A stretch of 40,759 nucleotides of DNA from Xinfangfangia pollutisoli (lineage in GTDB: Bacteria > Pseudomonadota > Alphaproteobacteria > Rhodobacterales > Rhodobacteraceae): assembly GCF_020179405.1 (NCBI RefSeq), contig NZ_JAICBZ010000034.1:1-40759 (forward strand), given 5' to 3'. Of this stretch, positions 436 to 22,287 are shown piece by piece. Both the position numbers and the translations under genes were made by a program. Numbering within the stretch: position 1 is the stretch's first letter; every line of letters starts with the position of its first letter. The notes under the pieces are model-generated. The model saw only the letters and a list, made by a program, of their open reading frames with translations, was not told the DNA's origin and ran no database searches.

Positions 436-3402
436 TCAGGCGATGGTCAGCGCGGCATTGACCAGCGCGGTTTGTTCGGCCTTGTGGCGCGAGGCAAGGC
501 CCGTCGCCGGCGAGGCGCTGGCCATGCGGCCGGCGTAGCTGGGGCGGGTGGTCGCCCCGCGCAGCTTGGTGAGCAGGATTTCCAGCTCGGGTTCGATGAA
601 GCTCCAGGCGCCCTGGTTCTTCGGCTCTTCCTGGCACCAGACGATATCGGCATTCGGGAAGCGCGCCAGTTCGGCCGACAGCGCGATCGAGGGCACCGGA
701 TAGATCTGTTCCAGACGCAGCAGATAGACATCGTCCAGCCCGCGCGCGTCGCGCTCGGCCAAAAGGTCGTAATAGACCTTGCCCGACGAGATCACCACGC
801 GGCGGATATCGGCATCGGCCTTCAGCTTGGTGTCGGAATGGCCCTTCTGCGCATCGTCCCAAAGGACGCGGTGGAAGGTCGAGCCATCGGTGAAATCGGC
901 CGCATCCGAGACGCACATCGGATGGCGCAGCAGCGATTTCGGCGTCATCAGGATCAGCGGCTTGCGGAAGTCGCGATGCAGCTGACGGCGCAGGATGTGG
1001 AAGTAGTTGGCGGGCGTCGAGCAATTCGCCACGATCCAGTTCTCTTCCGCCGACAGTTGCAGGAAGCGTTCCAGCCGCGCCGAGGAATGTTCAGGCCCCT
1101 GGCCTTCGAAGCCATGCGGCAGAAGGACCACCAGCCCCGACATCCGCAGCCATTTCGATTCGCCCGAGTTCACGAACTGGTCGAACATGATCTGCGCGCC
1201 ATTGGCGAAATCGCCGAACTGGGCTTCCCACAGGGTCAGCGCATTGGGTTCGGCCAGCGAATAGCCGTATTCGAAGCCCAGGACCGCATATTCCGACAGC
1301 ATCGAGTCGATGACCTCATACCGCGCCTGGCCGGCCCGGATGTGGTTCAGCGGATAGTAGCGTTCCTCGGTGGCCTGATCGACCCAGCCGGAATGGCGCT
1401 GCGAGAAGGTGCCGCGGGTGCAGTCCTGCCCCGCCAGCCGCACCGGGAAGCCCTCGACCTGCAGCGAGCCGAAGGCCAGCGCCTCGGCGGTCGCCCAGTC
1501 AAAGCCGGTGCCGGTTTCGAACATCTTCTTCTTCGCGTCCAGCTGGCGCGCGACGGTCTTGTGCATCTCGAACCCGTCGGGCACCCGGGTCAGCGCCGCG
1601 CCGATTTCGGCAAAAGTGTCGGCCTTGATCCAGGTCTCGCCGCGCTGATAGCTGTCAAGCCCGGCGGTCTGCATGTTCTTCCAGCGCCCATCCAGCCAGT
1701 CGGCCTTGTTGGGCTTGAAGTTCTTGCCGGCCTCGTATTCCTCGTTCAGACGCGCCTGGAAGGCGGCCTTCATATCCTCGATCTCGCCTTCGGGGATCAG
1801 CCCGTCGGCCACCAGACGCTCGGTATAAAGCTGCAGCGTGGTCTTCTGCTTGCGGATGCGGTTGTACATCTGCGGGTTGGTGAACATCGGCTCGTCGCCT
1901 TCGTTGTGACCGAAGCGGCGGTAGCAGAAGATGTCGATCACCACGTCCTTGTGGAACTTCTGGCGATATTCGGTCGCGACCTTGGCGGCATGCACCACGG
2001 CTTCGGGATCGTCGCCGTTCACATGGAAGATCGGCGCCTCGACCATCAAAGCGATGTCGGTCGGATAGGGCGAGGTGCGCGAGAAATGCGGCGCCGTGGT
2101 GAAGCCGATCTGGTTGTTCACGATGATATGGATGCAGCCGCCGGTGCGGTGGCCCTTGATGCCCGACAGTTGCAGGCATTCCGCCACCACGCCCTGGCCG
2201 GCAAAGGCCGCGTCGCCATGCAGAAGGATCGGCAGCACCGCGATGCGTTCGGCCGCGTCGTTGAACTGGTCCTGCTTGGCGCGCGCCTTGCCCAGGACGA
2301 CCGGGTTCACCGCTTCCAGGTGCGAGGGGTTCGCGGTCAGCGACAGGTGGACGGTATGGCCGTCAAAGGTGCGGTCCGACGAGGCGCCGAGGTGATATTT
2401 CACGTCGCCCGACCCGTCGACATCCTCGGGCTTGTAGCTGCCGCCCTGGAATTCGTGGAAGATCGCCTTGTAGGGCTTCATCAGCACATTGGCCAGAACG
2501 TTCAGCCGGCCGCGATGCGGCATGCCGATGACGATTTCCTTCACGCCCAGATTGCCGCCGCGCTTTATGATCTGTTCCATCGCCGGGATCAGCGCCTCGG
2601 CGCCGTCCAGGCCAAAGCGCTTGGTGCCCATGTACTTGACATGAAGGAACTTCTCGTAGCCCTCGGCTTCGACCAGCTTGTTCAGAATGGCCTTGCGGCC
2701 TTCGCGGGTGAAGGCGATTTCCTTGCCGTAGCCTTCGATCCGTTCCTTCAGCCAGCCGGCCTGTTCGGGATCCGAGATATGCATGTATTGCAGCGCGAAC
2801 GTGCCGCAATAGGTGCGCTTCAGGATCGCCACGATCTGGCGCATCGAGGCATGCGACAGGCCCAGAACCTGGTCGATGAAGATCGGCCGGTCCATGTCGG
2901 CTTCGCTGAAGCCGTAGGAGGCCGGGTCCAGTTCGGGATGCGGGGTCTTTTCGGCCAGGCCCAGCGGATCGAGGTCGGCGGCCAGATGGCCGCGGATCCG
3001 GTAGGCGCGGATGATCATCAGGGCGCGGATCGAATCGATCACGGCGCGCTGCAGCTGCGCTTCGGTCAGGTTGACGCCCGCCTCGGCGGCCTTGTCGGCG
3101 ATCTTCTTGCCGGCGGCCTTGGCCTCTTTCGCGGGCGGCGCCGGCCATTCGCCGGTCAGCGCGGCGGTCAGGTCATCGACAGGGGCGGGCGGCCAGTCGG
3201 CGCGCGCCCAGGACGGGCCGGCCGCGGCGGCGCGGGCATCGCGTTCGGTATCGCCCAGCGCCCGGAAGAATTCGGCCCATTGCGCATCGACCGAATTCGG
3301 ATCGGCGGCATAACGGGCCTGCAGCTGGTCGACGTAATCGGCATTGGCCCCATCGAGGAAGGACGAGGCGGTGAAGGCGGCGGTGGGGGATTGGTCGGTC
3401 AT
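436..3402 (-). CDS. sucA: 2-oxoglutarate dehydrogenase E1 component
   Basis: This 988-aa thiamine-diphosphate enzyme decarboxylates 2-oxoglutarate and passes the succinyl unit to the E2 lipoyl arm. The length is normal for the family. The N-terminal E2-binding segment (FLDGANADYVDQLQARY, about 15-31) is present. The signature GMPHRGRLN lies at 293-301. The ThDP-binding region runs from GDAAFAGQG (about 396) to VNNQIGFTT (about 428-436), matching the usual GD-x(n)-NN pattern. The C-terminal half carries the transketolase-type pyrimidine domain with FSQRHSGW. It sits 112 bp downstream of sucD and 11 bp upstream of sucB. The gap before sucD carries two small hairpins. A 1017-aa open frame on the opposite strand is a GC-rich shadow. 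Confidence 0.98.
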   Translation of the reverse strand: MTDQSPTAAFTASSFLDGANADYVDQLQARYAADPNSVDAQWAEFFRALGDTERDARAAAAGPSWARADWPPAPVDDLTAALTGEWPAPPAKEAKAAGKKIADKAAEAGVNLTEAQLQRAVIDSIRALMIIRAYRIRGHLAADLDPLGLAEKTPHPELDPASYGFSEADMDRPIFIDQVLGLSHASMRQIVAILKRTYCGTFALQYMHISDPEQAGWLKERIEGYGKEIAFTREGRKAILNKLVEAEGYEKFLHVKYMGTKRFGLDGAEALIPAMEQIIKRGGNLGVKEIVIGMPHRGRLNVLANVLMKPYKAIFHEFQGGSYKPEDVDGSGDVKYHLGASSDRTFDGHTVHLSLTANPSHLEAVNPVVLGKARAKQDQFNDAAERIAVLPILLHGDAAFAGQGVVAECLQLSGIKGHRTGGCIHIIVNNQIGFTTAPHFSRTSPYPTDIALMVEAPIFHVNGDDPEAVVHAAKVATEYRQKFHKDVVIDIFCYRRFGHNEGDEPMFTNPQMYNRIRKQKTTLQLYTERLVADGLIPEGEIEDMKAAFQARLNEEYEAGKNFKPNKADWLDGRWKNMQTAGLDSYQRGETWIKADTFAEIGAALTRVPDGFEMHKTVARQLDAKKKMFETGTGFDWATAEALAFGSLQVEGFPVRLAGQDCTRGTFSQRHSGWVDQATEERYYPLNHIRAGQARYEVIDSMLSEYAVLGFEYGYSLAEPNALTLWEAQFGDFANGAQIMFDQFVNSGESKWLRMSGLVVLLPHGFEGQGPEHSSARLERFLQLSAEENWIVANCSTPANYFHILRRQLHRDFRKPLILMTPKSLLRHPMCVSDAADFTDGSTFHRVLWDDAQKGHSDTKLKADADIRRVVISSGKVYYDLLAERDARGLDDVYLLRLEQIYPVPSIALSAELARFPNADIVWCQEEPKNQGAWSFIEPELEILLTKLRGATTRPSYAGRMASASPATGLASRHKAEQTALVNAALTIA

Positions 3403-3514: not shown

Positions 3515-4399
3515 TCAGCCCTTGATCGCCTTCAGCACGGCTTCGCCCAGATGGGCGGGGCTGTCGGCAACGACGATGCCGGCCGATTTCATCGCTTCGA
3601 TCTTCGAGCCGGCATCGCCCTTGCCACCGGCGACGATGGCGCCGGCGTGTCCCATGCGGCGGCCCGGAGGCGCGGTGCGGCCGGCGATGAAGCCCGCGGT
3701 CGGCTTCCAGCGGCCCTTCTTCTTTTCGTCGGCCAGGAATTGCGCGGCCTCTTCTTCGGCCGAGCCGCCGATTTCGCCGATCATGATGATCGAATGGGTT
3801 TCCGGGTCGGCCAGGAACATTTCCAGCACGTCGATATGTTCGGTGCCCTTGATCGGGTCGCCGCCGATGCCCACGGCCGAGGACTGGCCCAGGCCCACAT
3901 CGGTGGTCTGCTTCACCGCCTCATAGGTCAGCGTGCCCGAGCGCGACACGACGCCGACCGAACCGACCGAGAAGATCGAGCCCGGCATGATGCCGATCTT
4001 GCACTGGTTCGGCGTCATCACGCCGGGGCAGTTCGGCCCGATCAGCCGCGACTTCGAATTGATCAGCGCGCGCTTGACCTTCATCATGTCGAGGACCGGG
4101 ATGCCCTCGGTGATGCAGACGATCAGCGGGATCTCGGCGTCGATCGCTTCCAGGATGGAATCGGCGGCGAAGGGCGGCGGCACATAGATCGCCGAAGCGG
4201 TGGCGCCGGTTTTCGCGACCGCATCATGGACCGAATCGAAGACCGGCAGGCCCAGATGCTCGGACCCGCCCTTGCCCGGCGTCACGCCGCCGACCATTTG
4301 CGTGCCATAGGCGATGGCCTGTTCGGTGTGGAACGTGCCCTGGCTGCCGGTGATGCCCTGGCAGATGACCTTGGTGTTTTTGTCGACGAGAACGGCCAT
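3515..4399 (-). CDS. sucD: Succinate-CoA ligase (ADP-forming) alpha subunit
   Basis: This 294-aa subunit binds CoA and carries the phosphohistidine of succinyl-CoA synthetase, which makes ATP or GTP from succinyl-CoA. The N-terminal CoA-binding Rossmann domain shows [19 protein letters not shown] (11-29). [16 protein letters not shown] lies near 121-136. The phosphorylated histidine is H251 in [13 protein letters not shown]. The start has a strong ribosome site (AAGGAGG, 5 nt before ATG). Unlike the adjacent sucCD pair of many bacteria, it is separated from sucC by a sulfotransferase gene and a small lipoprotein gene, about 1.07 kb in all. It shares their strand and probably their transcript. 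Confidence 0.98.
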
Positions 4400-5466: not shown

Positions 5467-6660
5467 TTAGCCCTTGACGGCCTTGACGATCTTTTGCGCC
5501 GCGTCCGACAGGTCATCGGCCGCGATCACGTTCAGGCCCGACTTGTTGATGATGTCCTTGCCCAGCTGCACATTCGTGCCTTCCAGGCGGACCACCAGCG
5601 GAACCTTCAGCCCGACTTCCTTCACCGCGGCGATCACGCCCTCGGCGATGATGTCGCAGCGCATGATGCCGCCGAAGATGTTGACCAGGATGCCCTTCAC
5701 GTTCGGGTCCGAGGTGATGATCTTGAAGGCTTCGGTGACCTTTTCCTTCGTCGCGCCACCGCCCACATCCAGGAAGTTGGCCGGTTCGGCGCCGTAGAGC
5801 TTGATGATGTCCATCGTCGCCATGGCCAGGCCCGCGCCGTTGACCATGCAGCCGATTTCGCCATCGAGCGCGATGTAGTTCAGATCGAATTTCGACGCCG
5901 CCAGTTCCTTGGGGTCTTCCTCGGTCTCGTCGCGCAGTGCGGCGATGTCGGGGTGGCGGTAGATCGCATTGCCGTCAAAGCCCATCTTGGCGTCGAGCAG
6001 CTTCAGATTGCCGTCCTTCAACACGCAGAACGGGTTGATTTCCAGCATGTCCATGTCCTTGTCGACGAAGAGCTGGTACAGCTTCTTCACGATCTGGACG
6101 CATTGCTTGACCTGGTTGCCCTTCAGCCCCAGCGAGAAGGCGACGCGGCGGCCGTGGAAATCCTGCAGGCCGGTGGCCGGGTCGATGGTGATCGTCAGGA
6201 TCTTCTCGGGCGTCTCATGCGCGACGGTTTCAATGTCCATCCCGCCTTCGGTCGAGGCGACGATCGACACGCGCGAGGATTTGCGGTCGATCAGCAGCGC
6301 CAGATACAGCTCGCGCTCGATGTCGGAACCGTCTTCGATATAGATCCGGTTCACCTGCTTGCCGGCCGCGCCGGTCTGCACGGTCACCAGGGTGCGGCCC
6401 AGCATCTGGCGGGCGAATTCGGCGGCTTCCTCGACCGAGAAGGCCAGGCGCACGCCGCCCTTCTCGCCGGCTTCCGGCTCGACGAACTTGCCCTTGCCGC
6501 GGCCGCCGGCATGGATCTGCGACTTGACCACCCAGAGCGGCCCGTCCAGCTCACCGGCGGCGGTCTTGGCTTCTTCCGCCTTCAGCACGACCCGGCCGTC
6601 CGAGACGGGGATGCCGTAGCTGCGCAGAAGGGCCTTGGCCTGGTATTCGTGGATGTTCAT
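5467..6660 (-). CDS. sucC: Succinate-CoA ligase (ADP-forming) beta subunit
   Basis: This 397-aa ATP-grasp subunit binds nucleotide and succinate and pairs with SucD. The N-terminus [20 protein letters not shown] is typical. The ATP-grasp region includes [20 protein letters not shown] (43-62). The C-terminal flavodoxin-like domain shows [15 protein letters not shown], and the conserved [18 protein letters not shown] lies close to the end. It is the first gene of the suc operon. The 283 bp upstream contain a double palindrome (6770-6800) about 110 bp before the start. The ribosome site is poor compared with sucD, so the start is chosen by homology. Confidence 0.98.
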
Positions 6661-6769
6661 GTCGCAAGCCCCGCAGGTTCAGGATTTTGTCGCTTTCTGG
6701 CACAGATCGGACCCTGTTCCCAAGGCCTAAGACGGCAGGGGCGGCGAAAAGCCGCGAAAAAGCGACAAA

Positions 6770-6800
6770 TGTGATCACAGCTTGAAAAAGTGTGATCACA
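6770..6800. promoter_or_regulatory. 31-bp double palindrome upstream of sucC
   Basis: Two perfect copies of TGTGATCACA (6770-6779 and 6791-6800) are separated by 11 bp, so their centres are 21 bp (two helical turns) apart. The spacer contains CTTGAAAAAG on the plus strand. A matching element lies before sdhC at 15154-15184 with the same spacing and 27 of 31 identical positions. It is probably an operator for a dimeric regulator bound twice on one DNA face. It is not the spaced CRP/FNR pattern (TGTGA-N6-TCACA). The regulator is unknown. Confidence 0.7.
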
Positions 6801-6943
6801 AGCCCGAATCCGACCGGCGGCGTGCTGCGGCGCAGCAGTCGGAACCGCCCCGCGACGCTTGCGCTAACGTGATTCGCCGGCCCGCGCGAGAGGGCGGCCA
6901 AGGCGCGCCCGCGGCCCCCCCTTTGCGCGGCCGGCGCGGCAAA

Positions 6944-8134
6944 TCAGTTGAAGAAAATCGCGAAAAGCATCGCGTCGCCCTGCACCAGACGCTCGAACTC
7001 GCGCCAGCTGTCGGTGCGCATCCGCGGCCCCTTGCGCGCATAGGGCAGGAAGGCTTCGCCCTGCACCAGCCCGACCAGATCCAGCCGCGGCGGGCTGTCG
7101 AACAGCTTGGCCAGGTCGATCCCCGCCTCGGCGCCATAGCGCCAATGCGGGATCAGGATCTCGCCCTTCAGCGCCGCCTCGGCATCGGCCAGGATCGCCT
7201 GCCAATGCGCGGCCGTGCCGGACGGCATGATCAGACCCAGGGCCGAGGCCTGGCCTTCGGCGGGCACCCATTCGCGATCATTGTCGGTTTCGGCCGCGGC
7301 CAGGGCCCAGAAGCGGCGATTTTCGGTGATCATCGACAGAAGATGCGCATGCGCGGCGCGGGCGCGGGCGGGGTCGGGCTCTTGCGCCAGGGCGCGCAGG
7401 ATCATCGCCACCCGGTCGACCTGGCGGCCGAACATCATGTCAAAGGCATTCTCGGGCGGGGTGTCGCCCCAAAGCGCATACATCTTCTCCGAGGCGGTGG
7501 CGATCCGGTCCACCGCGGGGCCCGGATCATAGGCCAGCGCCACTTCGGTGAAGGCCGACAGCAGATGCGTATAGGCCGACAGCCAGGCCGCATCGGCGGT
7601 GTCGAAGCGCACCACCGGCCCCTCGGGACCCATGCCGATGCCGCCGCCCAGCATCTGGCCCGCCACGGCGGCGATGTCTTCGCCCGCGTCGCGGGTGCCG
7701 TTCAGGTTGATGTCGAACCACAGGTCGGCGAGGGCGATTTCCAGCGCGAAATCCTGCGGGCCCAGCGTGGTCAGCGCCGCGCGGGCGGCATCCATGTCAT
7801 CCGCGATCCCGGTCAGAAGCGCGGTCAGGTCGGCGCCGGTGAAGGGGCGGGCCTGGGGGTTTTCCGGGATCGGCAGGCGCAGGATCGGCAGTTCCGACCA
7901 ATCGGCGCGCATGCCGGTCTGCCAGCGCAGCTGCAGCGCGCGTTCGACCCCGCGCAGGAAGCGCAGGCCGGCCAGCGCGTAAAGATCGGGGGGCTTCGGC
8001 GCATCGAGCGCGGCCAGCCGCGCCTCGGTGGCGGCGATGCCGGTCTGGGCGATCTCGGCCGAGATCGGCGAGCGGTCGGCCTGGGCGATGCCGGGCAAAA
8101 GGGCGACAAGACTGGCAATCAGCAAGCGGCGCAT
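6944..8134 (-). CDS. Exported protein of unknown function with an EF-hand-like loop
   Basis: The product has 396 residues. It starts with a signal peptide (MRRLLIASLVALLPGIAQA) and is therefore probably periplasmic. The ATG at 8134 is chosen because an AAGGAAG ribosome site lies 6 nt before it; an ATG at 8152 lacks one. A loop DINLNGTRDAGED fits the spacing of a calcium-binding EF-hand or dockerin loop. The rest is helical, Ala/Leu-rich and not assigned to a family. It lies downstream of and in the same direction as the methyltransferase gene. It ends 143 bp before the double palindrome and 283 bp before the sucC start. Confidence 0.75.
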   Translation of the reverse strand: MRRLLIASLVALLPGIAQADRSPISAEIAQTGIAATEARLAALDAPKPPDLYALAGLRFLRGVERALQLRWQTGMRADWSELPILRLPIPENPQARPFTGADLTALLTGIADDMDAARAALTTLGPQDFALEIALADLWFDINLNGTRDAGEDIAAVAGQMLGGGIGMGPEGPVVRFDTADAAWLSAYTHLLSAFTEVALAYDPGPAVDRIATASEKMYALWGDTPPENAFDMMFGRQVDRVAMILRALAQEPDPARARAAHAHLLSMITENRRFWALAAAETDNDREWVPAEGQASALGLIMPSGTAAHWQAILADAEAALKGEILIPHWRYGAEAGIDLAKLFDSPPRLDLVGLVQGEAFLPYARKGPRMRTDSWREFERLVQGDAMLFAIFFN

Positions 8135-8231
8135 CGGGGGCTTCCTTCGCATTTGAAGCCGCAGGATGGGCGGCGGGGCGCCGCGGGTCAAGCCGAAGCA
8201 GGGTCGGGGATGGCTGACCCCGCGGCATGCC

Positions 8232-8891
8232 TCACGCAGGCGAGAGAACGGCAAGGCATTGGCCGCGCGGCAAAATCAGATCGCGCCAGGCCAGGGTGAA
8301 GCCGGCCGCCTGCGCCTCGGCCTGAACCTCGGCGCGATGGCGGTGCCAGGGCGGGCGGTTGGGATGGGTCACCACGCCGTCGCGCTGGCGGAAGGGGCCG
8401 GGCGGGCCTTCGGGGGCCAGGAACAGCGTCAAAAGCAGCGCCTTCAGGGCCGGAAACCGCGCGCGGACCGAGGCCAGGGCCGGCGGCAGAGCGCCCGGTG
8501 GCAGATGGGTGAAGACGCCCCAGGCGATGGCGAAGTCGATGGTTTCGGGCAGGCCGGGAAAGGCGAAATCGGCATCCTCGACCAGCTGATCCGCGGGCAG
8601 GCGGGCCTTGTCGGCCAGTTCCACCTCATAGCCGCGGCGCATCAGCGCGCCCGAGGCATCGGTGCCCCAGTAATGACCGGGATCGAGGAAGGGCACCGCC
8701 ATATGGCCCAGCCGCAGCGACCCGCAGCCGATGTCCAGCAGCTGGTGCTGCGGCCGCAGCCCCTCGGCCAGAAGGCAGGCCATCTGCGCCTCGGCGGTTT
8801 CTTCCCAGCGGCCGCCCACGATGTCGCGATGTTTCCCCGCGGCCAGCGCCTTGTCGTAGAAGCCGGGGGCGAGATAGGGCGAAAGCGTCAC
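8232..8891 (-). CDS. Class I SAM-dependent methyltransferase
   Basis: The protein has 219 residues. LLDIGCGSLRLGHMAV fits motif I of class I methyltransferases, the glycine-rich SAM loop, followed by HYWGTDAS, whose acidic residue would bind ribose. The segment IDFAIAWGVFTHLPPGALPP fits motifs IV-V. The substrate cannot be told. The start is a GTG 10 bp after the stop of the small basic-protein gene, with only a weak ribosome site; no in-frame ATG lies close, so GTG is accepted. It probably shares a transcript with its two neighbours. Confidence 0.8.
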   Translation of the reverse strand: MTLSPYLAPGFYDKALAAGKHRDIVGGRWEETAEAQMACLLAEGLRPQHQLLDIGCGSLRLGHMAVPFLDPGHYWGTDASGALMRRGYEVELADKARLPADQLVEDADFAFPGLPETIDFAIAWGVFTHLPPGALPPALASVRARFPALKALLLTLFLAPEGPPGPFRQRDGVVTHPNRPPWHRHRAEVQAEAQAAGFTLAWRDLILPRGQCLAVLSPA

Positions 8892-8901
8892 GGGCCGCGC
8901 T

Positions 8902-9051
8902 TTACGAGGGCTTCTGCGCCGCCGCCTTCATCCGGGCCAGCAGGGCCGATTTGTCGGGCGCCTTGGTCTTGGGCGCGCCTTTCTGGGCGCCGCGCTTGGC
9001 CTTGGGGGCGGGCTTGGCGGACGGGCTGCCGCCGGATTTGGAATAGTCCAT
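8902..9051 (-). CDS. 49-aa lysine/alanine/proline-rich basic protein
   Basis: A very good ribosome site (GAGGAGG, 5 nt before ATG) supports this short gene. The product begins MDYSKSGGSPSAKPAPKAK and is rich in Lys, Ala and Pro, ending ALLARMKAAAQKPS. It looks unstructured with a short C-terminal helix. From memory, similar short basic proteins occur in Rhodobacterales genomes as hypothetical proteins. It precedes the methyltransferase gene by 10 bp. Function is unknown; nucleic-acid or membrane-surface binding is conceivable from its charge only. Confidence 0.7.
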   Translation of the reverse strand: MDYSKSGGSPSAKPAPKAKRGAQKGAPKTKAPDKSALLARMKAAAQKPS

Positions 9052-9144
9052 CTGGGCCTCCTCGGGAGATTTCCCAAGGGGATGCCGGATTCCGGCGGCG
9101 GGGGCAATGGGGGTTGATCCGGGGGTGGCGCTTCGGGGCTGGCG

Positions 9145-9196
9145 CCGGGGGTTTTGCACCCCCGGGCCCCCGCAGGATATTTATGCAGAGAGGAAG
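9145..9196. terminator. GC hairpin next to a dispersed 22-nt element, 3' of the acetyltransferase gene
   Basis: A stem with arms CCGGGGG (9145-9151) and CCCCCGG (9159-9165) and a 7-nt loop can terminate transcripts of the minus-strand acetyltransferase gene. Beside it, 9175-9196 reads GGATATTTATGCAGAGAGG followed by AAG. This matches the reverse complement of 38428-38449 at 21 of 22 positions. In both places C-rich tracts adjoin the same end of the element. The terminator role is inferred from position. Confidence 0.55.
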
Positions 9197-9205
9197 GCTG
9201 GAGGA

Positions 9206-9781
9206 TCAGGCTAGGGTTTTGGTGAAGAGGGTCCAGGTGGCGGCATCGACCTGCCAATCGCCCCTGACCACCGGGCGGCTGGCCTGTTCGGCAAAGCCCT
9301 TGGCGCGGTAGAGGCGCTGGGCGTCTTGATGGGTGTCGGCGGCGATCAGGCTGATCGTGCGGTGGCCCAGATCGCGCGCCACCGTCTCGGCCTGGGCCAG
9401 CAGGGCCGCGCCGCAGCCCTGGCCGCGGAAGGCCGGGTAGGTGGCCAGCACGTTCAGATACCAGGCGCCGGGGGCCAGCGCTTCCAGTTCCAGCAGCGGC
9501 ACGAAGATCGGCGGCGTGTCGGCTTCGATCACGGCCGGGGTCGCGTCGGCGGGATAGCCCAACAGGCCGGCCGCAACCTGGCCGTCGATTTCCGCCATCC
9601 AGGCGTTGGAATACGAGAAATTGCCGGTCTCGCGCGCCGCGCGTTCGCGGCCCAGGGCCCAGGGGTCGCCCTGGGGGCCGACCGATTTCTTCCAGAAATG
9701 CAGCGGCAGGTCATCGGCCGCCAGATTGATGAAGCGCGTCAGATGGTCGGCATCCGACGCAATGGCCTTGCGGATCTGCAT
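9206..9781 (-). CDS. GNAT-family N-acetyltransferase
   Basis: The product has 191 residues. The start MQIRKAIASDADHLTRFI is chosen at 9781 because a GAAAGGG ribosome site precedes it. The acetyl-CoA-binding motif A is clear: WYLNVLATYPAFRGQGCGAA, containing the R/Q-x-x-G-x-G/A signature as RGQGCG. The C-terminal motif B, IAADTHQDAQRLYRAKGFAE, is also typical. The acceptor is unknown; the fold fits small-molecule or amino-acid acetyltransferases. It is divergent from the cupin gene at 9922. Confidence 0.85.
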   Translation of the reverse strand: MQIRKAIASDADHLTRFINLAADDLPLHFWKKSVGPQGDPWALGRERAARETGNFSYSNAWMAEIDGQVAAGLLGYPADATPAVIEADTPPIFVPLLELEALAPGAWYLNVLATYPAFRGQGCGAALLAQAETVARDLGHRTISLIAADTHQDAQRLYRAKGFAEQASRPVVRGDWQVDAATWTLFTKTLA

Positions 9782-9921
9782 AGTTGGGCCCTTTCCCGGT
9801 CTGAGGCGCCTTCCCTGCCGCAGGGCGCGGGGCGGCGCAAGGGGCTGTCGCGGCGCTTGCCAGGCTGCGGGCAAGGCCCTACCACCGGCACGAACCGCAA
9901 AGCCATTCAGGAAGGAACGAG

Positions 9922-10275
9922 ATGAGCGACATGGTTTTCCGCCTGCCCGCGCCGGGGCCCGAGCCGAGGCTGACCGATCTGGACGGCTGGGTGAAGGTCG
10001 AGGGCAACCCGACGATGAAGACCTGGGTGCAGCACACGTCGCTGGATGGCAGCGTGATCAGCGGCACCTGGGAGGCGACGCCGGGCAGCTGGCATGCCAG
10101 CTATCAGTTCTACGAATTCGTCCATCTGATCGAAGGCCAGATCACCATCACCCCCGACGGCGCCGATCCGGTGACGCTGCGGCCGGGCGATGCCTTCGTG
10201 GTCGAGCCGGGCTTCAAGGGCGTCTGGAAGATCGAGGCGCCGGTGAAGAAGCATTTCTGCATCAAGCTGAAGTAA
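9922..10275 (+). CDS. Cupin-domain protein
   Basis: The product has 117 residues and is a single small beta-barrel of the Cupin_3 type. Cupin motif 1 is degenerate around YQFYEFVHLIEGQITITPDG (67-86), and motif 2 is RPGDAFVVEPGFKGVW. Only one histidine of the usual metal triad is evident in motif 1, so a bound metal is uncertain. The start has a GGAAGGAACGAG leader. It stands alone, convergent with mdh, with a strong shared terminator between them. Members of this group are often near amino-acid or polyamine metabolism, but nothing here fixes the substrate. Confidence 0.85.
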   Translation: MSDMVFRLPAPGPEPRLTDLDGWVKVEGNPTMKTWVQHTSLDGSVISGTWEATPGSWHASYQFYEFVHLIEGQITITPDGADPVTLRPGDAFVVEPGFKGVWKIEAPVKKHFCIKLK

Positions 10276-10311
10276 CGGCGGGGCTTGGGGCAGCTTTCAG
10301 GTCGGAAAATG

Positions 10312-10341
10312 GAAAGGGGCGCCGCAGCGGGCGCCCCTTTC
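10312..10341. terminator. Bidirectional terminator between the cupin gene and mdh
   Basis: A perfect 12-bp stem, GAAAGGGGCGCC (10312-10323) with GGCGCCCCTTTC (10330-10341), encloses a 6-nt loop. It lies between two convergent genes and has A/T runs at both outer ends, so it can stop transcription from both sides. Confidence 0.85.
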
Positions 10342-10358
10342 GCATCGTGTCGGACCGA

Positions 10359-12223
<1,865 letters not shown>

Positions 12224-12354
12224 CCCGGCTGGCCGCCCGGCGGCAGGAATTCGGCGCGTATTTCTGCGATGCGGCAAATCCGGGCTTGCCGAAAATGGCA
12301 ACTTCGCTATGTCATGCGCAAGATTCTTTCGCAGCGCCTTCGCCGGAGATTGCC

Positions 12355-13215
12355 ATGTCGCGCCCCTACCGTTCGGTCCTGTATATTCCCGGTTCGAAAG
12401 AGCGGGCGCTGGAAAAGGCGCGCGACCTGGCCTGCGATGCGATCATCTTCGATCTGGAAGATGCGGTGGCGCCGGAGGAAAAGCCGGCGGCGCGCGCGCT
12501 GCTGGTGCAGGTGCTGAAGGATGTCGATTTCGGCAACCGGGCGCGGATCGTGCGGATCAACGGGCTGGATACCGAATGGGGCGCGGCCGATGCGGCGGCG
12601 ATGGAACGCGCGCTGGGCGAAGGGGCCAAGATCGACGCGGTGCTGGTGCCCAAGGTCTCCGCTCCGGGCATGCTGGACGATGTGGCGCGGATCGTGCCGG
12701 GCGCCGATCTTTGGGCGATGATGGAGACCGCGGCGGGCATGCTGAACGCGGGCGCGATCGCCGCGCATCCGCGGCTGAAGGGCATGGTGATGGGCACGAA
12801 TGACCTGGCGAAAGAGCTGGGCAGCCGCTTCCGCCCCGACCGGCTGGCGATGCAGACTGGTCTGGGACTTTGCCTGCTGGCGGCGCGTGCCAATGGAAAG
12901 ATCATTGTTGACGGTGTCTACAATGCCTTCAAGGACGAGGACGGGTTGCGGGCGGAATGCGATCAGGGCCGCGACATGGGCTTTGACGGCAAGACGCTGA
13001 TCCACCCGGCGCAACTGGCCATCGCCAATGCCGCCTTCGCGCCCTCGGATGCGGAAATCGACCTGGCCCGCCGCCAGATCGCGGCTTTCGAGGCGGCCAA
13101 GGCCGCGGGGCAGGGCGTGGCGGTGCTGGACGGCCGGATCGTCGAAAACCTGCATATCGTCACCGCCGAGGCGCTGCTGGCCAAGGCCAAGGCGATTGCG
13201 GCGCTGGGGCATTAA
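12355..13215 (+). CDS. mcl2: CitE-family (3S)-malyl-CoA thioesterase
   Basis: The product has 286 residues in the HpcH/HpaI-CitE fold. The signature SVLYIPGSKERALEKA (7-22) and the metal/acid motif IIFDLEDAVAPEEK (30-43) are clear, as is VLVPKVSAPGMLDDVA. In Rhodobacter sphaeroides the shorter paralogue, Mcl2, hydrolyses (3S)-malyl-CoA to malate and CoA, while the longer Mcl1 is the L-malyl-CoA/beta-methylmalyl-CoA lyase. Length and the neighbouring mesaconyl-CoA hydratase favour Mcl2. A citrate lyase beta subunit is unlikely because no citD or citF is near. The start at 12355 has CGGAGAT before it. Confidence 0.85.
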   Translation: MSRPYRSVLYIPGSKERALEKARDLACDAIIFDLEDAVAPEEKPAARALLVQVLKDVDFGNRARIVRINGLDTEWGAADAAAMERALGEGAKIDAVLVPKVSAPGMLDDVARIVPGADLWAMMETAAGMLNAGAIAAHPRLKGMVMGTNDLAKELGSRFRPDRLAMQTGLGLCLLAARANGKIIVDGVYNAFKDEDGLRAECDQGRDMGFDGKTLIHPAQLAIANAAFAPSDAEIDLARRQIAAFEAAKAAGQGVAVLDGRIVENLHIVTAEALLAKAKAIAALGH

Positions 13216-13254
13216 GATAAGCTTGGGCGGAATTTTCCCCCCGCGGAGGCGCGT

Positions 13255-13803
13255 ATGTCCCTGATTCTTCTGATCGTTGGTCTTGCGCTCTGGGCGGGCG
13301 CGCATCTGTTCAAACGGCTGGCCCCGGCGGCCCGGGCGCGGATGGGCGATCCGGGCAAGGGCGCGGTGGCGCTGGCGCTGCTGGCGGCGCTGGTGCTGAT
13401 GGTGCTGGGCTATCGCGGCGCGGAGTTCACCTATCTTTGGGATCCGCCGCGCTTCCTGATCCATGTGAACAACCTGCTGATGCTGATCGCCGTCTTCCTG
13501 TTCGCGGCCGACGGGATGCGGGCGCCGCTGATCGGGCGGATGCGCCATCCGCAACTTACCGCTGTCAAGACCTGGGCCCTCGCGCATCTGCTGGTGAATG
13601 GCGATCTTGCCAGTGTCATCCTGTTTGGTGGCCTGCTGGCCTGGGCGGTGGTCGAGGTGATCGTGATCAACCGTGCCGTGCCGGTCTTTGTGCCGAAACC
13701 CGTGAAGCCGGGCGCGACCTGGAAGGCGGCCCTGGCCACGCCGGTCGCGCTGGGGCTGATCATGCTGATCCACAACTGGCTGGGCCCGCAGCCCTGGCCA
13801 TAA
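13255..13803 (+). CDS. NnrU-family membrane protein
   Basis: This 182-aa integral membrane protein has about five hydrophobic segments. The start MSLILLIVGLALWAGAHLFKRLAP, the segment YLWDPPRFLIHVNNLLMLIAVFLFA and the HPQLTAVKTWALAHLLVNGD motif are characteristic of NnrU. The family was named from denitrification clusters (nitric oxide response) in Rhodobacter and is related to isoprenoid-methylating NnrU/NnuR proteins. No denitrification gene or FNR-type box is seen here, so its role in this place is unclear. It follows mcl2 by 39 bp and is followed after 10 bp by the DUF1737 gene. Confidence 0.85.
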   Translation: MSLILLIVGLALWAGAHLFKRLAPAARARMGDPGKGAVALALLAALVLMVLGYRGAEFTYLWDPPRFLIHVNNLLMLIAVFLFAADGMRAPLIGRMRHPQLTAVKTWALAHLLVNGDLASVILFGGLLAWAVVEVIVINRAVPVFVPKPVKPGATWKAALATPVALGLIMLIHNWLGPQPWP

Positions 13804-13813
13804 GGAGGTTCCC

Positions 13814-14017
13814 ATGCGCCTTTACCGTTTCCTGTCGGATGACGACACCTCGGCCTTCTGCCACAAGGTCAGCCTGGCCCTGTCGAAAGGCTGGGAGCTG
13901 CAGGGCAGCCCGACCTATGCCTTCGATGCGGCCCGCGGCGTGATGCGCTGCGGCCAGGCGGTGACCAAGGACGTGCCCGGCACCTATTCCCCCGATCTGA
14001 AACTGGGCGAGATGTAA
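13814..14017 (+). CDS. DUF1737-domain protein
   Basis: The product has 67 residues. Its sequence, MRLYRFLSDDDTSAFCHKV through WELQGSPTYAFDAA, matches the short DUF1737 fold in which a conserved KGWELQG segment follows an amphipathic helix. The ribosome site (TAAGGAGG) overlaps the NnrU stop, so the two are probably coupled. Function of the family is unknown. Its place between NnrU and mch is the same as I recall for Rhodobacter sphaeroides. Confidence 0.85.
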   Translation: MRLYRFLSDDDTSAFCHKVSLALSKGWELQGSPTYAFDAARGVMRCGQAVTKDVPGTYSPDLKLGEM

Positions 14018-14041
14018 GTCGGCCCCGCCGACGCAGGAGGC

Positions 14042-15073
14042 ATGATGAAAACCAATCCCGGCCGGTTTTTCGAGGATTATCAGCTGGGTGAGGTGATCGC
14101 CCATGCCGTGCCCCGCACGCTTTCGGGCGGCGAGCGGGCGCTGTATCACGCGCTTTATCCGGCGCGCGGGGCGCTGTATTCCTCGGACGCTTTCGCCCGC
14201 GCCTGCGGTCTGCCGCAAAGCCCGCTGGACGATCTGATCGCCTTCCATAGCGTTTTCGGCAAGACCGTGCCGGATATCAGCCTGAATGCGGTGGCCAATC
14301 TGGGCTATGCCGAGGGCCGCTTTCTGGCGCCGGTCTGGCCGGGCGACACGCTGCGCGCCGAAAGCACGGTGATCGGGCTGAAGGAGAATTCCAACGGCAA
14401 GTCGGGTGTGGTCTGGGTGCGCACGCGCGGGCTGAACCAGCACGGCCAGCCGGTGCTGGACTATGTCCGCTGGGTGATGGTGCGCAAGAACCGCGCGACA
14501 CCCGCGCCGGCGCCGGTTGTTCCCGAACTGCAAGCTTTCGTGCCGCCCGAGGCGCTGGTGGTGCCCGAGGGGTTGGATTTCTCCAACTACGATTTCGCTC
14601 TGGCAGGGGAAAGGCACCGCTGGGGCGATTATGAAATCGGCGAGACCATCGACCATGTCGATGGCGTGACCGTCGAAGAGGCCGAGCATATGCTGGCCAC
14701 CAGGCTGTGGCAGAACACCGCCAAGGTGCATTTCGACGCCACTTTCCGCGAAGACGGCAAGCGGCTGATCTATGGCGGCCATGTCATCAGCCTGGCGCGG
14801 GCGCTGTCGTTCAACGGGCTGGCCAATGCGCAGATGATCGTGGCGCTGAACGGCGGTGCGCATGCCAATCCCTGCTTTGCCGGCGATACGGTGAAGGCCT
14901 GGTCCGAAGTGCTGGACCGCGCCCCCACCGCCGCCCCGGGCGTGGGCGCGCTGCGGCTGCGGCTGGTCGCGGTGAAGCAGGGCGCCGCGCCCTTTGCCCT
15001 GAAGGACGCGGCCGGCAAGTACCGGCCCGAAGTGCTGCTGGATCTGGATTACTGGGCGCTGGTGCCGGTCTGA
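14042..15073 (+). CDS. mch: Mesaconyl-CoA hydratase
   Basis: The product has 343 residues with two MaoC-like hot-dog domains. The first covers about 1-165 (FFEDYQLGEVIAHAVPRTLS), and the second runs from about 195 (YEIGETIDHVDGVTVEEAEH) to the end. In the ethylmalonyl-CoA pathway it hydrates mesaconyl-C1-CoA to beta-methylmalyl-CoA for acetate assimilation. The gene has two consecutive ATGs, 14042 and 14045. AGGAGG ends at 14040, so 14045 has the better spacing. It ends 264 bp before sdhC. The nearby Mcl2-type thioesterase acts in the same pathway. Confidence 0.9.
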   Translation: MMKTNPGRFFEDYQLGEVIAHAVPRTLSGGERALYHALYPARGALYSSDAFARACGLPQSPLDDLIAFHSVFGKTVPDISLNAVANLGYAEGRFLAPVWPGDTLRAESTVIGLKENSNGKSGVVWVRTRGLNQHGQPVLDYVRWVMVRKNRATPAPAPVVPELQAFVPPEALVVPEGLDFSNYDFALAGERHRWGDYEIGETIDHVDGVTVEEAEHMLATRLWQNTAKVHFDATFREDGKRLIYGGHVISLARALSFNGLANAQMIVALNGGAHANPCFAGDTVKAWSEVLDRAPTAAPGVGALRLRLVAVKQGAAPFALKDAAGKYRPEVLLDLDYWALVPV

Positions 15074-15153
15074 CCGCCGCCACCGCGCCCGTCGCGCCGC
15101 GCGGCGCTAGGGCGATTCCAGCCGCGCCGCGCCGGGGGCTTGCCGGCGAAATT

Positions 15154-15184
15154 TGTGATCACTTCCTGAAAAAGCGTGATCACA
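15154..15184. promoter_or_regulatory. 31-bp double palindrome upstream of sdhC
   Basis: TGTGATCACT (15154-15163) and CGTGATCACA (15175-15184) share the perfect 8-bp palindrome GTGATCAC and lie 21 bp apart. The spacer holds CTGAAAAAG. Aligned on the plus strand, it matches the element before sucC (6770-6800) at 27 of 31 positions, spacer included. It lies about 154 bp upstream of the sdhC start, upstream of a weak candidate promoter, TTGCCA-N18-TGCAAT, from 15197. That would suit an activator or a looping repressor. Confidence 0.7.
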
Positions 15185-15337
15185 TGCGGAAAAAATTGCC
15201 AGGTTTAGCGCCAACAGGCTGCAATTGCGGCAAAGCCGGGCGTGACTTGGCTGAAAAATCGGTTATGCAAGGGCCAGGGACAAGCGCGCTCGCCCACCGG
15301 ATCAGGCGGGCGGCAGCCAGCGACGAAGGGACATGAC

Positions 15338-15724
15338 ATGGCAGAGGCCAAACGGGTCGAACGGCCCCTCTCCCCCCATTTGCAGATCTACCGCTGGCAG
15401 GTTCCGATGCTGACATCGATCCTGACCCGCATCACCGGCCACGCGCTGATCGCGGCTTTCGTGCTGGTGATCTGGTGGCTTCTGGCCGCGGCGACATCGG
15501 AGAGCTACTTCAATTTCGTGAATGCCATCGCCACCAGCTGGTTCGGCGATCTGGTCTTCGCGGGCTCGCTTTGGGCGATCTGGTACCATTACCTCGCCGG
15601 GCTGCGGCACCTTTACTATGATGCGGGCAAGGGGCTGGACGTGCCCACGGCGGAAAAGCTGGGCTGGGCCTGCATCATCGGTTCGGTCGTGCTGACCGTG
15701 ATCACAATCCTTCTGGTTCAGTGA
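15338..15724 (+). CDS. sdhC: Succinate dehydrogenase cytochrome b556 subunit
   Basis: This 128-aa membrane anchor has three transmembrane helices (about 28-52, 62-84 and 106-127). The N-terminal RPLSPHLQIYRWQVPMLTSI is typical of SdhC and includes the quinone-site region. The signature HYLAGLRHLYYD (84-95) fits the cytochrome b556 pattern and includes the candidate haem-ligand histidine. The ATG at 15338 is used because AAGGGA lies 7-8 nt upstream; earlier in-frame ATGs would add an unlikely tail. It opens the sdh operon and is followed after 7 bp by sdhD. Confidence 0.95.
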   Translation: MAEAKRVERPLSPHLQIYRWQVPMLTSILTRITGHALIAAFVLVIWWLLAAATSESYFNFVNAIATSWFGDLVFAGSLWAIWYHYLAGLRHLYYDAGKGLDVPTAEKLGWACIIGSVVLTVITILLVQ

Positions 15725-15731
15725 GGACGCC

Positions 15732-16103
15732 ATGCGCTATCTGACCCCCCGCAAACGGGCCGAGGGCCGCGGTGCCGCGCATTCGGGCACCCATCACCAT
15801 TGGTCGATGACCCTGTCCTCGGTCGGGCTGGCATTCCTGGTGCCGACCTGGATCTATGTCTTCGGCACCACGCTGGGCCAGGACCATGCCGGCGTTGTCG
15901 ACACCTTCTCGCGCCCCTTCCCGGCGATCCTGACGGCGCTGCTTTTGGTGATCGGCATGCGCCATTTCGCCATGGGCGCGACGATGATGGTCGAGGATTA
16001 CACCCGCGGCACCGGCCGCAAGCTGGCGGTTCTGGGCATCGTGATGCTGTCCTGGCTGATCGGCGCGGTGGGGATTTTCGCGCTGGCCAAGCTTGCGCTG
16101 TAA
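15732..16103 (+). CDS. sdhD: Succinate dehydrogenase hydrophobic membrane anchor
   Basis: The product has 123 residues with three membrane helices. The N-terminus MRYLTPRKRAEGRGAAHSGT and the segment HHHWSMTLSSVGLAFLVP are as in alphaproteobacterial SdhD. The family histidine in GMRHFAMGATMMVEDY can serve as a haem or quinone-site residue. With SdhC it fixes the catalytic dimer to the inner membrane and passes electrons to ubiquinone. The start has GAGGA before it, 7 bp past the sdhC stop. Confidence 0.93.
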   Translation: MRYLTPRKRAEGRGAAHSGTHHHWSMTLSSVGLAFLVPTWIYVFGTTLGQDHAGVVDTFSRPFPAILTALLLVIGMRHFAMGATMMVEDYTRGTGRKLAVLGIVMLSWLIGAVGIFALAKLAL

Positions 16104-16115
16104 GGGACGGAACAG

Positions 16116-17921
16116 ATGACGACGGCTTATCCTTACGAAGTGCATGATTACGACGTGGTCGTGGTGGGGGCCGGCGGCGCGGGCTTGCGCGCCACGCTGG
16201 GCATGGCCGAACAGGGCCTGCGCACCGCCTGCGTGACCAAGGTCTTCCCGACCCGCAGCCATACGGTGGCGGCCCAGGGCGGCATCGCGGCCAGCTTGGG
16301 CAATATGGGCCCGGACAGCTGGCAATGGCACATGTATGACACGGTGAAGGGCAGCGACTGGCTGGGCGACACCGATGCGATGGAATATCTGGCGCGCGAG
16401 GCCCCGAAGGCGGTCTATGAGCTGGAGCATTACGGCGTGCCGTTCAGCCGCACCGAAGAGGGCAAGATCTATCAGCGCCCCTTCGGCGGCCATACGACCG
16501 AATATGGCGAAGGCCCGCCGGTGCAGCGCACCTGCGCCGCGGCCGACCGCACCGGCCACGCGATCCTGCACACGCTGTATGGCCAATCGCTGAAGAACAA
16601 TGCCGAGTTCTACATCGAATATTTCGCCATCGACCTGATCATCACCGACGGCGTCTGCACCGGCGTGGTGACCTGGAAGCTGGATGACGGCACGATCCAT
16701 GTCTTCAACGCCAAGATGGTGGTTCTGGCGACCGGCGGCTATGGCCGCGCCTATTTCTCGGCCACCTCGGCCCATACCTGCACCGGCGACGGTGGCGGCA
16801 TGGTCGCGCGGGCCGGCCTGCCGCTGCAGGACATGGAATTCGTGCAGTTCCACCCGACCGGCATCTATGGCTCGGGCTGTCTGATCACCGAAGGCGCCCG
16901 CGGCGAGGGCGGCTATCTGACCAACAGCGAAGGCGAGCGCTTCATGGAGCGTTACGCTCCGCACTATAAGGACCTGGCGCCGCGCGACTATGTGTCCCGC
17001 TGCATGACGATGGAAATCCGCGAAGGCCGCGGCGTGGGCCCCAACAAGGACCATATCCATCTGCACCTGAACCACCTTCCGCGCGAGTCGCTGGAACTGC
17101 GCCTGCCGGGCATCACCGAAAGCGCCCGCATCTTTGCCGGCGTCGATCTGCACAAGGAACCGATCCCGGTTCTGCCGACGGTGCATTACAACATGGGCGG
17201 CATTCCCACCAACTATTGGGGCGAGGTGCTGAACCCGACCGCCGCCAATCCCGATGCGGTCTTCCCAGGCCTGATGGCGGTGGGCGAGGCGGGCTGTGCC
17301 TCGGTCCATGGCGCGAACCGTCTGGGATCGAACTCGCTGATCGACCTGGTGGTCTTCGGCCGCGCCGCGGCGATCCGCGCGGGGCAGGTGGTCCGCAAGG
17401 ACGCGCCCGTGCCGGGCGTGAACAAGGCCGAGGTCGACAAGGCGCTGAGCCGCTTCGACGGCTTGCGCCATGCCAATGGCGGCACGCCCACGGCCGAGCT
17501 GCGGCTTGAGATGCAGCGCACCATGCAGGCCGACGCGGCCGTGTTCCGCACCGAGGCCACGCTGGCCGAGGGCGAGAAGAAGATGACCGCCATCGCCGGC
17601 AAGCTGGGCGATCTGAAGGTCACCGACCGCAGCCTGGTCTGGAACAGCGACCTGATGGAGACGCTGGAACTGACCAACCTGATGCCCAACGCGCTGGCGA
17701 CGATCTACGGGGCGCATGCCCGGACCGAAAGCCGCGGCGCCCATGCGCATGAGGATCATCCGACGCGGGACGATGCCAATTGGCGCAAGCACACGCTGGC
17801 CTGGGTCGATGGCAACAAGGTCACGCTCGACTTCCGGCCGGTGCATGTCGATCCGCTGACGACCGAAGCGGATGGCGGCATCAGCCTGAAGAAGATCGCG
17901 CCGGCGGAGCGGAAGTTCTGA
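16116..17921 (+). CDS. sdhA: Succinate dehydrogenase flavoprotein subunit
   Basis: This 601-aa catalytic subunit oxidises succinate to fumarate with covalently bound FAD. The Rossmann motif [12 protein letters not shown] lies at 15-26. The FAD-linked histidine is H49 in [16 protein letters not shown]. The motif [12 protein letters not shown] and the substrate segment [11 protein letters not shown] are intact, as is [13 protein letters not shown] near residue 355. Its length is normal. Its TGA overlaps the ATG of the next small gene (TGATG), and three lipoprotein genes separate it from sdhB. Confidence 0.98.
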
Positions 17922-18930: not shown

Positions 18931-19710
18931 ATGGTCCAGTTCACGCTTCCGAAGAACTCGAAGATCCGCACCGGCAAGACCTGGCCCAAGCCCGAGGGCG
19001 CCAAGAACGTGCGGGCGTTCCACATCTATCGCTGGAATCCCGATGACGGGAAGAACCCGCAGATCGACACCTATTTCCTGGACATGGACAAATGCGGTCC
19101 CATGGTCCTGGACGCGCTGATCAAGATCAAGAACGAGATCGACCCGACGCTGACCTTCCGCCGGTCCTGCCGCGAAGGCATCTGCGGAAGCTGCGCGATG
19201 AACATCGACGGGCTGAACCATCTGGCCTGCATCTACGGGCTGGACGAGATCAAGGGCGACGTGAAGATCTACCCGCTGCCGCATGCGGCCGTGGTCAAGG
19301 ACCTGATCCCGGACCTGACGCATTTCTATGCCCAGCATGCCTCGATCATGCCCTGGCTGGAAACCAAGACCAACACGCCGGGCAAGGAATGGCGCCAGTC
19401 GATCGAGGATCGGGCCAAGCTGGACGGGCTTTATGAATGCGTGATGTGCGCGTCCTGCAGCACGTCCTGCCCCAGCTACTGGTGGAATGCCGACCGCTAT
19501 CTCGGGCCCGCCGCGCTGCTGCATGCCTATCGCTGGATCATCGATTCGCGCGATGAAGCCACGGGCGAGCGGCTGGATGCGCTGGAAGATCCGTTCAAGC
19601 TGTACCGCTGCCACACGATCATGAACTGCGCCGAGACCTGCCCGAAGGGGCTGAACCCGGCCAAGGCGATTGCCGAGATCAAGAAGATGATGGTCGAGCG
19701 CGTCGTCTGA
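18931..19710 (+). CDS. sdhB: Succinate dehydrogenase iron-sulfur subunit
   Basis: The product has 259 residues and relays electrons from FAD to quinone through three Fe-S clusters. The [2Fe-2S] site is [16 protein letters not shown] plus HLACIYG. The ferredoxin-like half has [16 protein letters not shown] and [17 protein letters not shown] for the [4Fe-4S] and [3Fe-4S] clusters. All ligands are present. It is the last gene of the operon, 7 bp after lipoprotein 3. It is followed by a three-part palindrome and by convergent mtnA. Confidence 0.98.
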
Positions 19711-22206: not shown

Positions 22207-22257
22207 CGATACGTCCTCGCCTTGGGCCTTCCATCGGGCCGGGCCTGAGCTTATGTA

Positions 22258-22272
22258 TGTTATAACCTAACA
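22258..22272. promoter_or_regulatory. Zur-type operator between znuA and zur
   Basis: TGTTATAACCTAACA (22258-22272) has perfect outer 5-bp half-sites TGTTA and TAACA around 5 bp. It lies 52 bp upstream of the znuA start and 16 bp upstream of the zur start. The AT-rich palindrome and divergent arrangement fit a zinc-loaded Zur repressor acting on both promoters. Confidence 0.75.
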
Positions 22273-22287
22273 GGTCAAGAGGCGGAA

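Follow-up and report, generated by a model that had tools for sequence, protein, structure and literature searches.

Paired palindromes before the suc and sdh operons

The window analyzed here, a stretch of 40,759 nucleotides from Xinfangfangia pollutisoli (assembly GCF_020179405.1, contig NZ_JAICBZ010000034.1, positions 1 to 40,759), carries two operons of the tricarboxylic acid cycle, suc and sdh, each preceded by a 31-bp element containing two copies of the palindrome GTGATCAC. The suc genes are located on the minus strand and encode the beta subunit of succinyl-CoA synthetase (sucC, 5467..6660; NF001913, 591.5 bits for a cut-off of 370), its alpha subunit (sucD, 3515..4399; NF004230, 452 bits for a cut-off of 336), and the E1 component of 2-oxoglutarate dehydrogenase (sucA, 436..3402; NF006914, 1361.6 bits for a cut-off of 764). 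The sdh genes are located on the plus strand and encode the cytochrome b556 subunit (sdhC, 15338..15724; TIGR02970, 124.7 bits for a cut-off of 52.3), the membrane anchor (sdhD, 15732..16103; TIGR02968, 43.8 bits for a cut-off of 41.8), the flavoprotein subunit (sdhA, 16116..17921; TIGR01816, 928.6 bits for a cut-off of 727.35), and the iron-sulphur subunit (sdhB, 18931..19710; NF004616, 377 bits for a cut-off of 228). The sucC and sdhC genes were called with NCBIfam profiles.

The element before sucC, TGTGATCACAGCTTGAAAAAGTGTGATCACA, occupies positions 6770-6800 (minus strand), with palindromes at 6771-6778 and 6792-6799 separated by a 13-bp spacer (N13) at 6779-6791. The element before sdhC, TGTGATCACTTCCTGAAAAAGCGTGATCACA, occupies positions 15154-15184 (plus strand), with palindromes at 15155-15162 and 15176-15183 and an N13 spacer at 15163-15175. 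Each is presumed to be a double operator of the regulator AkgR, as discussed below. The two elements are alike at 27 of 31 positions (four mismatches), and each has a centre-to-centre palindrome distance of 21 bp. The sequence check thus bore out the preliminary description of this DNA with respect to the copies of the palindrome, their spacing, their similarity, and their location. The opposite orientation of the two spacers relative to the downstream gene is also true for this genome. In contrast, the proposed requirement for a CTGAAAAAG spacer was not borne out, as spacers from different genomes have only their length and an A/T bias in common. Since the spacer letters vary across genomes, the resemblance of the suc and sdh spacers within this genome deserves no weight.

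The palindrome GTGATCAC is present six times in the window for 0.55 expected occurrences, a number reached in none of 100 shuffled sequences. The two copies located outside the elements start at positions 15698, within sdhC, and 31562. In the complete set of contigs of this genome (4,408,679 bases), exact GTGATCAC-N13-GTGATCAC doublets are found at the suc and sdh places only, and tolerance of one mismatch adds a single place. The 10-mer TGTGATCACA occurs twice in the genome, both times within the suc element.

The search was extended to 198 genomes of the family Rhodobacteraceae, comprising one genome per genus; the counts reported below were not corrected for shared descent beyond this choice. 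Doublets with spacers of 2 to 32 bp were detected in 187 of the 198 genomes, and 13-bp spacers were recurrent among the matches listed, often as pairs located several kb apart. Regions L050-L069 and L130-L149 were fetched for a listed element. Twenty regions taken from doublet matches harbored the element before sucC or sdhC in 17 cases and before fumC in one case (L056). In L055 and L058, it was internal to a coding sequence (a fructose-6-phosphate aldolase in L058; in L055, a weak match to a VWA domain far under the cut-off), and these two matches are taken as chance occurrences. Look-alike spacers in G075, G076, G138, G193, and G073 probably correspond to the same fructose-6-phosphate aldolase coding match. 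The fumC locus is the third element-bearing place of genome G042 (L056:6295-6321, at G042:C16:228294). It contains a 13-bp-spaced doublet approximately 125 bp before a gene for class II fumarate hydratase (TIGR00979, above cut-off), which suggests, from sequence, that fumarase was added to the target set in some genera.

A further set of 32 family genomes, all harboring the candidate regulator gene described below, contained the doublet in every case, with two matches in 25 genomes, one in 3, and three in 4. Approximately the first twenty of these genomes had been picked for high counts in the scan of the 198 genomes, the genes next to the matches were partly checked, and some of the matches (e.g. 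in G193, G138, and G073) look like the L058 coding match. In a class-wide sample, the exact 13-bp form was detected in 31 of 387 genomes (5 of 6 within the family, 26 of 381 outside). The doublet is likely to be restricted to the family, since the spacers of the outside matches are, by eye, mostly G+C-rich.

The geometry of the element is constrained. In 86 sdhC leaders, pairs of TGATCA were spaced by 21 bp in 58 cases and by 20 bp in 7; the corresponding numbers for 65 sucC leaders were 45 and 4. Spacers were mostly N13, with a minority of N12 and a single N11, and their letters were not conserved past the A/T bias. The distance from the downstream edge of the element to the start of the gene was 106-170 bp for sdhC (60 leaders) and 96-150 bp for sucC (45 leaders, 42 of which were within 96-113 bp). 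None of the 86 sdhC and 65 sucC leaders analyzed contained a third palindrome at a 21-bp step. Three GTGATCAC-type palindromes at 21-bp steps were observed at G135:C8:374319-374366, approximately 9 kb from the element located upstream of sdh at C8:383121; judged by position alone, this triple is compatible with a suc leader.

In G063 and G093, suc and sdh are located at separate loci and the element is still present before both operons, as it is in most of the relatives examined. These observations support joint control of suc and sdh by one regulator, as initially proposed. Random positions of the element, or its absence from close relatives, had been put forward as grounds for refutation, and the link to suc and sdh was not refuted by this analysis.

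Co-occurrence with a GntR gene and probable assignment to AkgR

According to the relevant passages of PMC6365646, GTGATCAC is a motif identified in sites bound by the Rhodobacter sphaeroides activator AkgR, which these passages credit to an earlier report (mBio 6:e02461-14). In the same species, the GntR protein RSP_0981 was predicted to control sucCD (succinyl-CoA synthetase), sdh, and kgd (2-oxoglutarate dehydrogenase), according to a passage of PMC4344238. In the portions available of other articles, AkgR appears as reference-list entries (PMC7471390, PMC8557541, and PMC4419725), and PMC11323563 reports results on CceR. The initial statement that no known regulator could be named was therefore wrong, since AkgR of R. 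sphaeroides agrees with these elements both in its motif and in its target operons. We take AkgR and RSP_0981 to be the same protein. We conclude that both elements of the window are very probably operators of AkgR, a transcriptional activator of the GntR family containing an FCD domain. Three features expected of AkgR operators are found together in this genome: the GTGATCAC palindrome, a position before suc and sdh, and a candidate GntR gene. The regulator and its motif are already known, and the suc and sdh elements described here add members.

The genome of X. pollutisoli contains 41 GntR matches. The candidate AkgR gene (G000:C177:4162-4833, corresponding to L126:1057-1731, minus strand in L126) encodes a protein with GntR and FCD domains and is the putative AkgR orthologue. 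Orthologues of the candidate are located near sdhB in G175, G051, and G026 (83-88% identity) and near suc in G010, G197, and G408 (73-76% identity). The GntR gene located near sdhB in G016 (L209) belongs to a different GntR group. Eighty named orthologue loci, mainly from Gemmobacter, Tabrizicola, Rhodobacter, and Cypionkella, were also inspected together with the flanking DNA fetched, which extended to at most 10 kb; 41 of them contain a gene of suc (36 loci) or of sdh (5 loci), and the proportion is 33 of 49 for loci with full flanks. In the protein encoded by L126:1057-1731 (minus strand) and in the named orthologues, the stretches NLEFH and RTDV are near-invariant. FCD proteins usually have an aspartate and a last histidine as metal ligands at two of these places; the ligand site of the candidate may therefore be altered.

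To be counted as an orthologue of the candidate, a protein had to match at an E value of 1e-40, a threshold that may admit a paralogue since many genomes have two matches. By this definition, the orthologue was detected in 178 of the 198 genomes, with 3 weak cases (G054, G122, and G033), and was missing in 20. Among the 11 genomes without any doublet match, the orthologue was missing in 8, weak in 2, and present in one, G147, which is 73% complete and in which no sdhB was found.

The association was then evaluated leader by leader in genomes that had not been chosen for the element. Sixty sdh regions were picked, with large contigs favored, from approximately 160 sdhB places among the matches listed (188 of the 198 genomes matched sdhB). 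Three genomes without a doublet match (G101, G083, and G109) were deliberately included among the 60, the element of G001 was already listed, and G184 was excluded since it had no sdhC match. For sucC, 30 genomes were taken as a subset of 40 from the sdh set, all with the orthologue, after the sdhC outcome was known; sucC-like matches of less than 65% identity were discarded as paralogues, leading to the loss of G021. The comparison set comprised 23 genomes in which the orthologue was missing (20) or weak (3); sdhC leaders could be used from 17 of them and sucC leaders from 20. With no more than one mismatch allowed, an N13 doublet preceded sdhC in 46 of 55 gene-positive genomes versus 2 of 17 with a missing or weak gene (Fisher test, 1.1e-7), and preceded sucC in 27 of 30 versus 4 of 20 (6.6e-7). 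Upon inclusion of N11 to N13 spacers, the proportions increased to 54 of 55 versus 2 of 17 for sdhC and to 30 of 30 (27 N13 and 3 N12) versus 4 of 20 for sucC. The remaining sdhC leader of the 55, from G110, harbors an N13 form with two mismatches. Thus, the sequences provide strong indications that the element and the gene are present or absent together, with four exceptions.

These exceptions belong to a group of observations that weigh against the assignment to AkgR. Elements were found without a detected orthologue in G096 (77% complete), G114 (320 contigs), and G019 (210 contigs), and with only a weak orthologue match in G033 (74% complete); assembly gaps may explain these four cases. In addition, G120 and G090, which were fetched for an element, harbor the gene and a suc element and have none before sdhC. 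GntR genes are found near suc or sdh in few regions (3 of 10 genomes; 4 of 60 sdh regions, including one with a gene of another group), and neither the window nor the set of 20 element-bearing loci contains one. The 80 named orthologue loci include no R. sphaeroides locus, so that the identity of the candidate with RSP_0981 is deduced from family, neighborhood, and co-occurrence. Other regulators have also been tied to sdh, namely CceR (a prediction in PMC4344238, cited in PMC11323563) and, through another site, FnrL in Rhodobacter capsulatus (PMC4634722), according to passages of these articles. Finally, a single candidate protein was profiled across genomes, and binding and activation by AkgR are predicted from sequence in the present case.

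We consider it improbable that a different regulator reads the elements and that its gene and the GntR gene were, by coincidence, lost from the same set of genomes. This explanation draws on the profiling of one candidate, as genomes devoid of the GntR gene may be missing other regulators, and on the indirect fit between the candidate and RSP_0981. It is opposed by the motif printed for AkgR in PMC6365646, by the GntR and FCD domains of the candidate, and by the proximity of its gene to suc or sdh in some of the relatives. A site of the CRP/FNR or LacI type for FnrL, RedB, or CceR is very unlikely. Passages of PMC4634722, PMC9603854, PMC9603517, and PMC4344238 connect the three proteins with the expression of sdh or suc in species of Rhodobacter. 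However, the printed FnrL sites are of the TTGAT-N4-ATCAA type (PMC4634722), whereas the present palindromes have no gap between half-sites, in support of the initial view that they are not CRP/FNR sites. The motif reported for RedB is a non-palindromic 12-mer, with indirect effects on sucA, sucB, sdhB, and fumC, and CceR (RSP_1663) belongs to the LacI family, as far as the passages on these two proteins go. That the elements are mobile or repetitive DNA inserted before both operons by chance is scarcely credible. The identity at 27 of 31 positions within one genome would be compatible with such an origin, but this genome contains just two exact copies, 25 of the 32 further genomes contain exactly two matches, and the spacers vary across genomes while the palindromes and their spacing stay. 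Among the matches listed for relatives, no scatter of copies over many unrelated locations was observed.

Autoregulation of the candidate gene does not appear to be general, since GTGATCAC was found in only 3 of 79 usable named loci, each time just inside the projected start of the gene. In G187, two TGATCA palindromes located 5 bp apart (G187:C1:3357950-3357968) precede the AkgR-like gene of this genome by approximately 50 bp, and autoregulation is possible there, as judged from sequence. Another GntR gene (L101) was evaluated as the regulator and rejected; a GTGATCAC copy precedes its start by 81 bp, and this palindrome falls inside the preceding open reading frame.

Helical phasing between the element and the presumed promoter

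The DNA located between the element and the promoter was analyzed in 58 sdhC and 45 sucC leaders harboring the exact N13 form, 2 and 4 of which, respectively, originated from genomes with a missing or weak orthologue. In sdhC leaders aligned on the operator, A/T tracts recur with a period of 10.5 bp and a phase coherence of 0.904, and none of 2000 nulls generated by row shifting matched the observed power. In sucC leaders, the period is approximately 10 bp, with a coherence of 0.89 measured at 10.5 bp (none of 2000 shifted nulls); the best period is 10.0 for a 75-bp span or 9.5 for a 50-bp span, not 10.5. In the window, the corresponding linkers extend over positions 15185..15240 before sdhC (plus strand; tracts every ~10.5 bp) and 6700..6769 before sucC (minus strand; tracts every ~10 bp), and both are in register with the operator. 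Alignment on the start codon instead lowered the coherence to 0.122 for sdhC and to 0.366 for sucC (18 leaders). The residual value for sucC is expected, since 42 of the 45 operator-to-start distances are 96-113 bp.

The periodicity followed the presence of the gene and element. Mean power at 10.5 bp was 1.47 for the 58 sdhC leaders versus 0.31 for 15 leaders lacking both gene and element, and 0.88 for the 45 sucC leaders versus 0.35 for 16 such leaders. The 15-leader set took the place of an earlier sdhC control (28 leaders without the exact N13 form, mean power 0.756), which included leaders with N12 elements. Counted from the palindrome centre modulo 10.5, A/T maxima are located at 4.1 bp for sdhC and 3.8 bp for sucC, nearly the same phase; the values for the two leaders of the window are 3.1 and 5.2 bp.

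A presumed -35 box of sdhC, GTGACT (15242..15247, plus strand), is located 62 bp from the nearer palindrome centre, and a presumed -10 box, TATGCA (15265..15270, plus strand), follows after 17 bp. The position of the latter predicts a transcription start at approximately 15277. A -35-like GTGACW was searched 37-94 bp from the nearer palindrome centre, the copy nearest 63 bp being chosen if there were several. It was present in 50 of the 58 element-bearing sdhC leaders, and 8 had none in the searched range. The distance was 61-65 bp in 45 of these 50 leaders; the others (52, 52, 53, 73, and 74 bp) are off by one helical turn. In a few sdhC leaders, the best-scoring promoter lay elsewhere (41, 44, 50, and 97 bp). 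A clear -35 box for sucC was not found in the sucC leaders.

Mode of action and related systems

The proposed mechanism involves two AkgR dimers bound, probably cooperatively, to the two GTGATCAC palindromes. Palindromes located 20-21 bp apart are separated by two helical turns and hence lie on the same face of the DNA. With dyads at approximately -98 and -119 relative to the presumed sdhC start, AkgR would be positioned to activate an sdh promoter with a poor -35 box, and it would activate suc likewise. The helix-phased A/T linker would hold the operator to a fixed face while bringing it, or bending it, towards RNA polymerase, enabling contact between AkgR and the polymerase. The activator role assigned to AkgR in this scheme is taken from the passages of PMC6365646. 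The A/T tracts may act through DNA bending, through contact with the alpha subunit of the polymerase, or both. We give even chances to the more general proposal of a helical ruler in the suc and sdh promoters of Rhodobacteraceae, combining two palindromes (three in one genome) 20-21 bp apart, phased tracts and, for sdh, whole-turn steps of the -35 box; the activator would act through a pre-curved, phase-locked linker present family-wide and lost with the regulator.

It is possible, although we find it doubtful, that AkgR binds these operators as a repressor or dual regulator, or that the A/T tracts are an UP sequence for the alpha subunit of the polymerase and involve no bending. Many GntR/FCD proteins are repressors, and, upstream of the -35 box, alpha subunits touch the minor grooves of A/T-rich DNA at helical steps, for which the same period is expected. 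With respect to repression, AkgR is termed an activator in the passages of PMC6365646, and the operator, approximately 93-123 bp upstream of the presumed start, is distant from the positions occupied by simple repressors. The 10.5-bp period is absent from the above-mentioned leaders devoid of gene and element, both for sdhC and for sucC. The UP and bending explanations are compatible with each other. The proposed activation of both promoters by AkgR across the phased linker has a parallel in class I activation by CRP, which depends on helical phase and tolerates whole-turn shifts. In both systems, an activator is located at a set helical distance upstream and whole-turn shifts are tolerated; the present one differs by the family of the regulator, the two tandem palindromes, and the long phased linker.

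The closest known system is the AkgR regulon of R. sphaeroides, with the same GTGATCAC motif and an activator (PMC6365646) and with suc, sdh, and kgd as predicted targets of the GntR protein RSP_0981 (PMC4344238). The doublet spacing, the phased linker, and the helical-turn steps are absent from the AkgR passages of these two articles. PS417_07240, a GntR-like regulator of a Pseudomonas deoxyribonate cluster, also reads GTGATCAC and is 32% identical to AkgR; it differs by its pathway and in having one palindrome, with no doublet, at positions -47 to -40 relative to the start codon predicted for its own gene, in the corresponding passages of PMC6365646. In tandem operators of the IclR family, the centres of two palindromes are 18-22 nt apart, an arrangement attributed to a tetramer bound on one side of the DNA (PMC8222616, in part). 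The spacing of the present elements falls within this range, whereas their sequence agrees with neither printed consensus, TGRAACA-N1-2-TGTTYCA or GKTYCRY-W3-4-RYGRAMC (same passages). Interpretation of the 21-bp spacing in terms of a ribbon-helix-helix (NikR-like) or IclR protein was abandoned on the GntR evidence. Literature searches with the motif letters returned, among the matches listed, no title on bacterial suc or sdh regulation. The open literature searched and the available part of the survey of GntR motifs (PMC4494728) yielded no description of a strict doublet, a phased linker, or whole-turn steps; no priority is claimed.

The target set is apparently very small, with two matches in 25 of 32 genomes, and is tied to one GntR activator across a bacterial family, for which exact operators are now available for testing. 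If the phased linker matters, the 58 sdhC and 45 sucC leaders provide a natural series for determining how an activator located approximately 90-120 bp upstream reaches RNA polymerase.

On the 3' side of sdh, positions 21181-24453 of the window contain a zinc uptake cluster, comprising a ZnuA-like gene on the minus strand and genes for a FUR-family protein and an ABC-3 permease on the plus strand.

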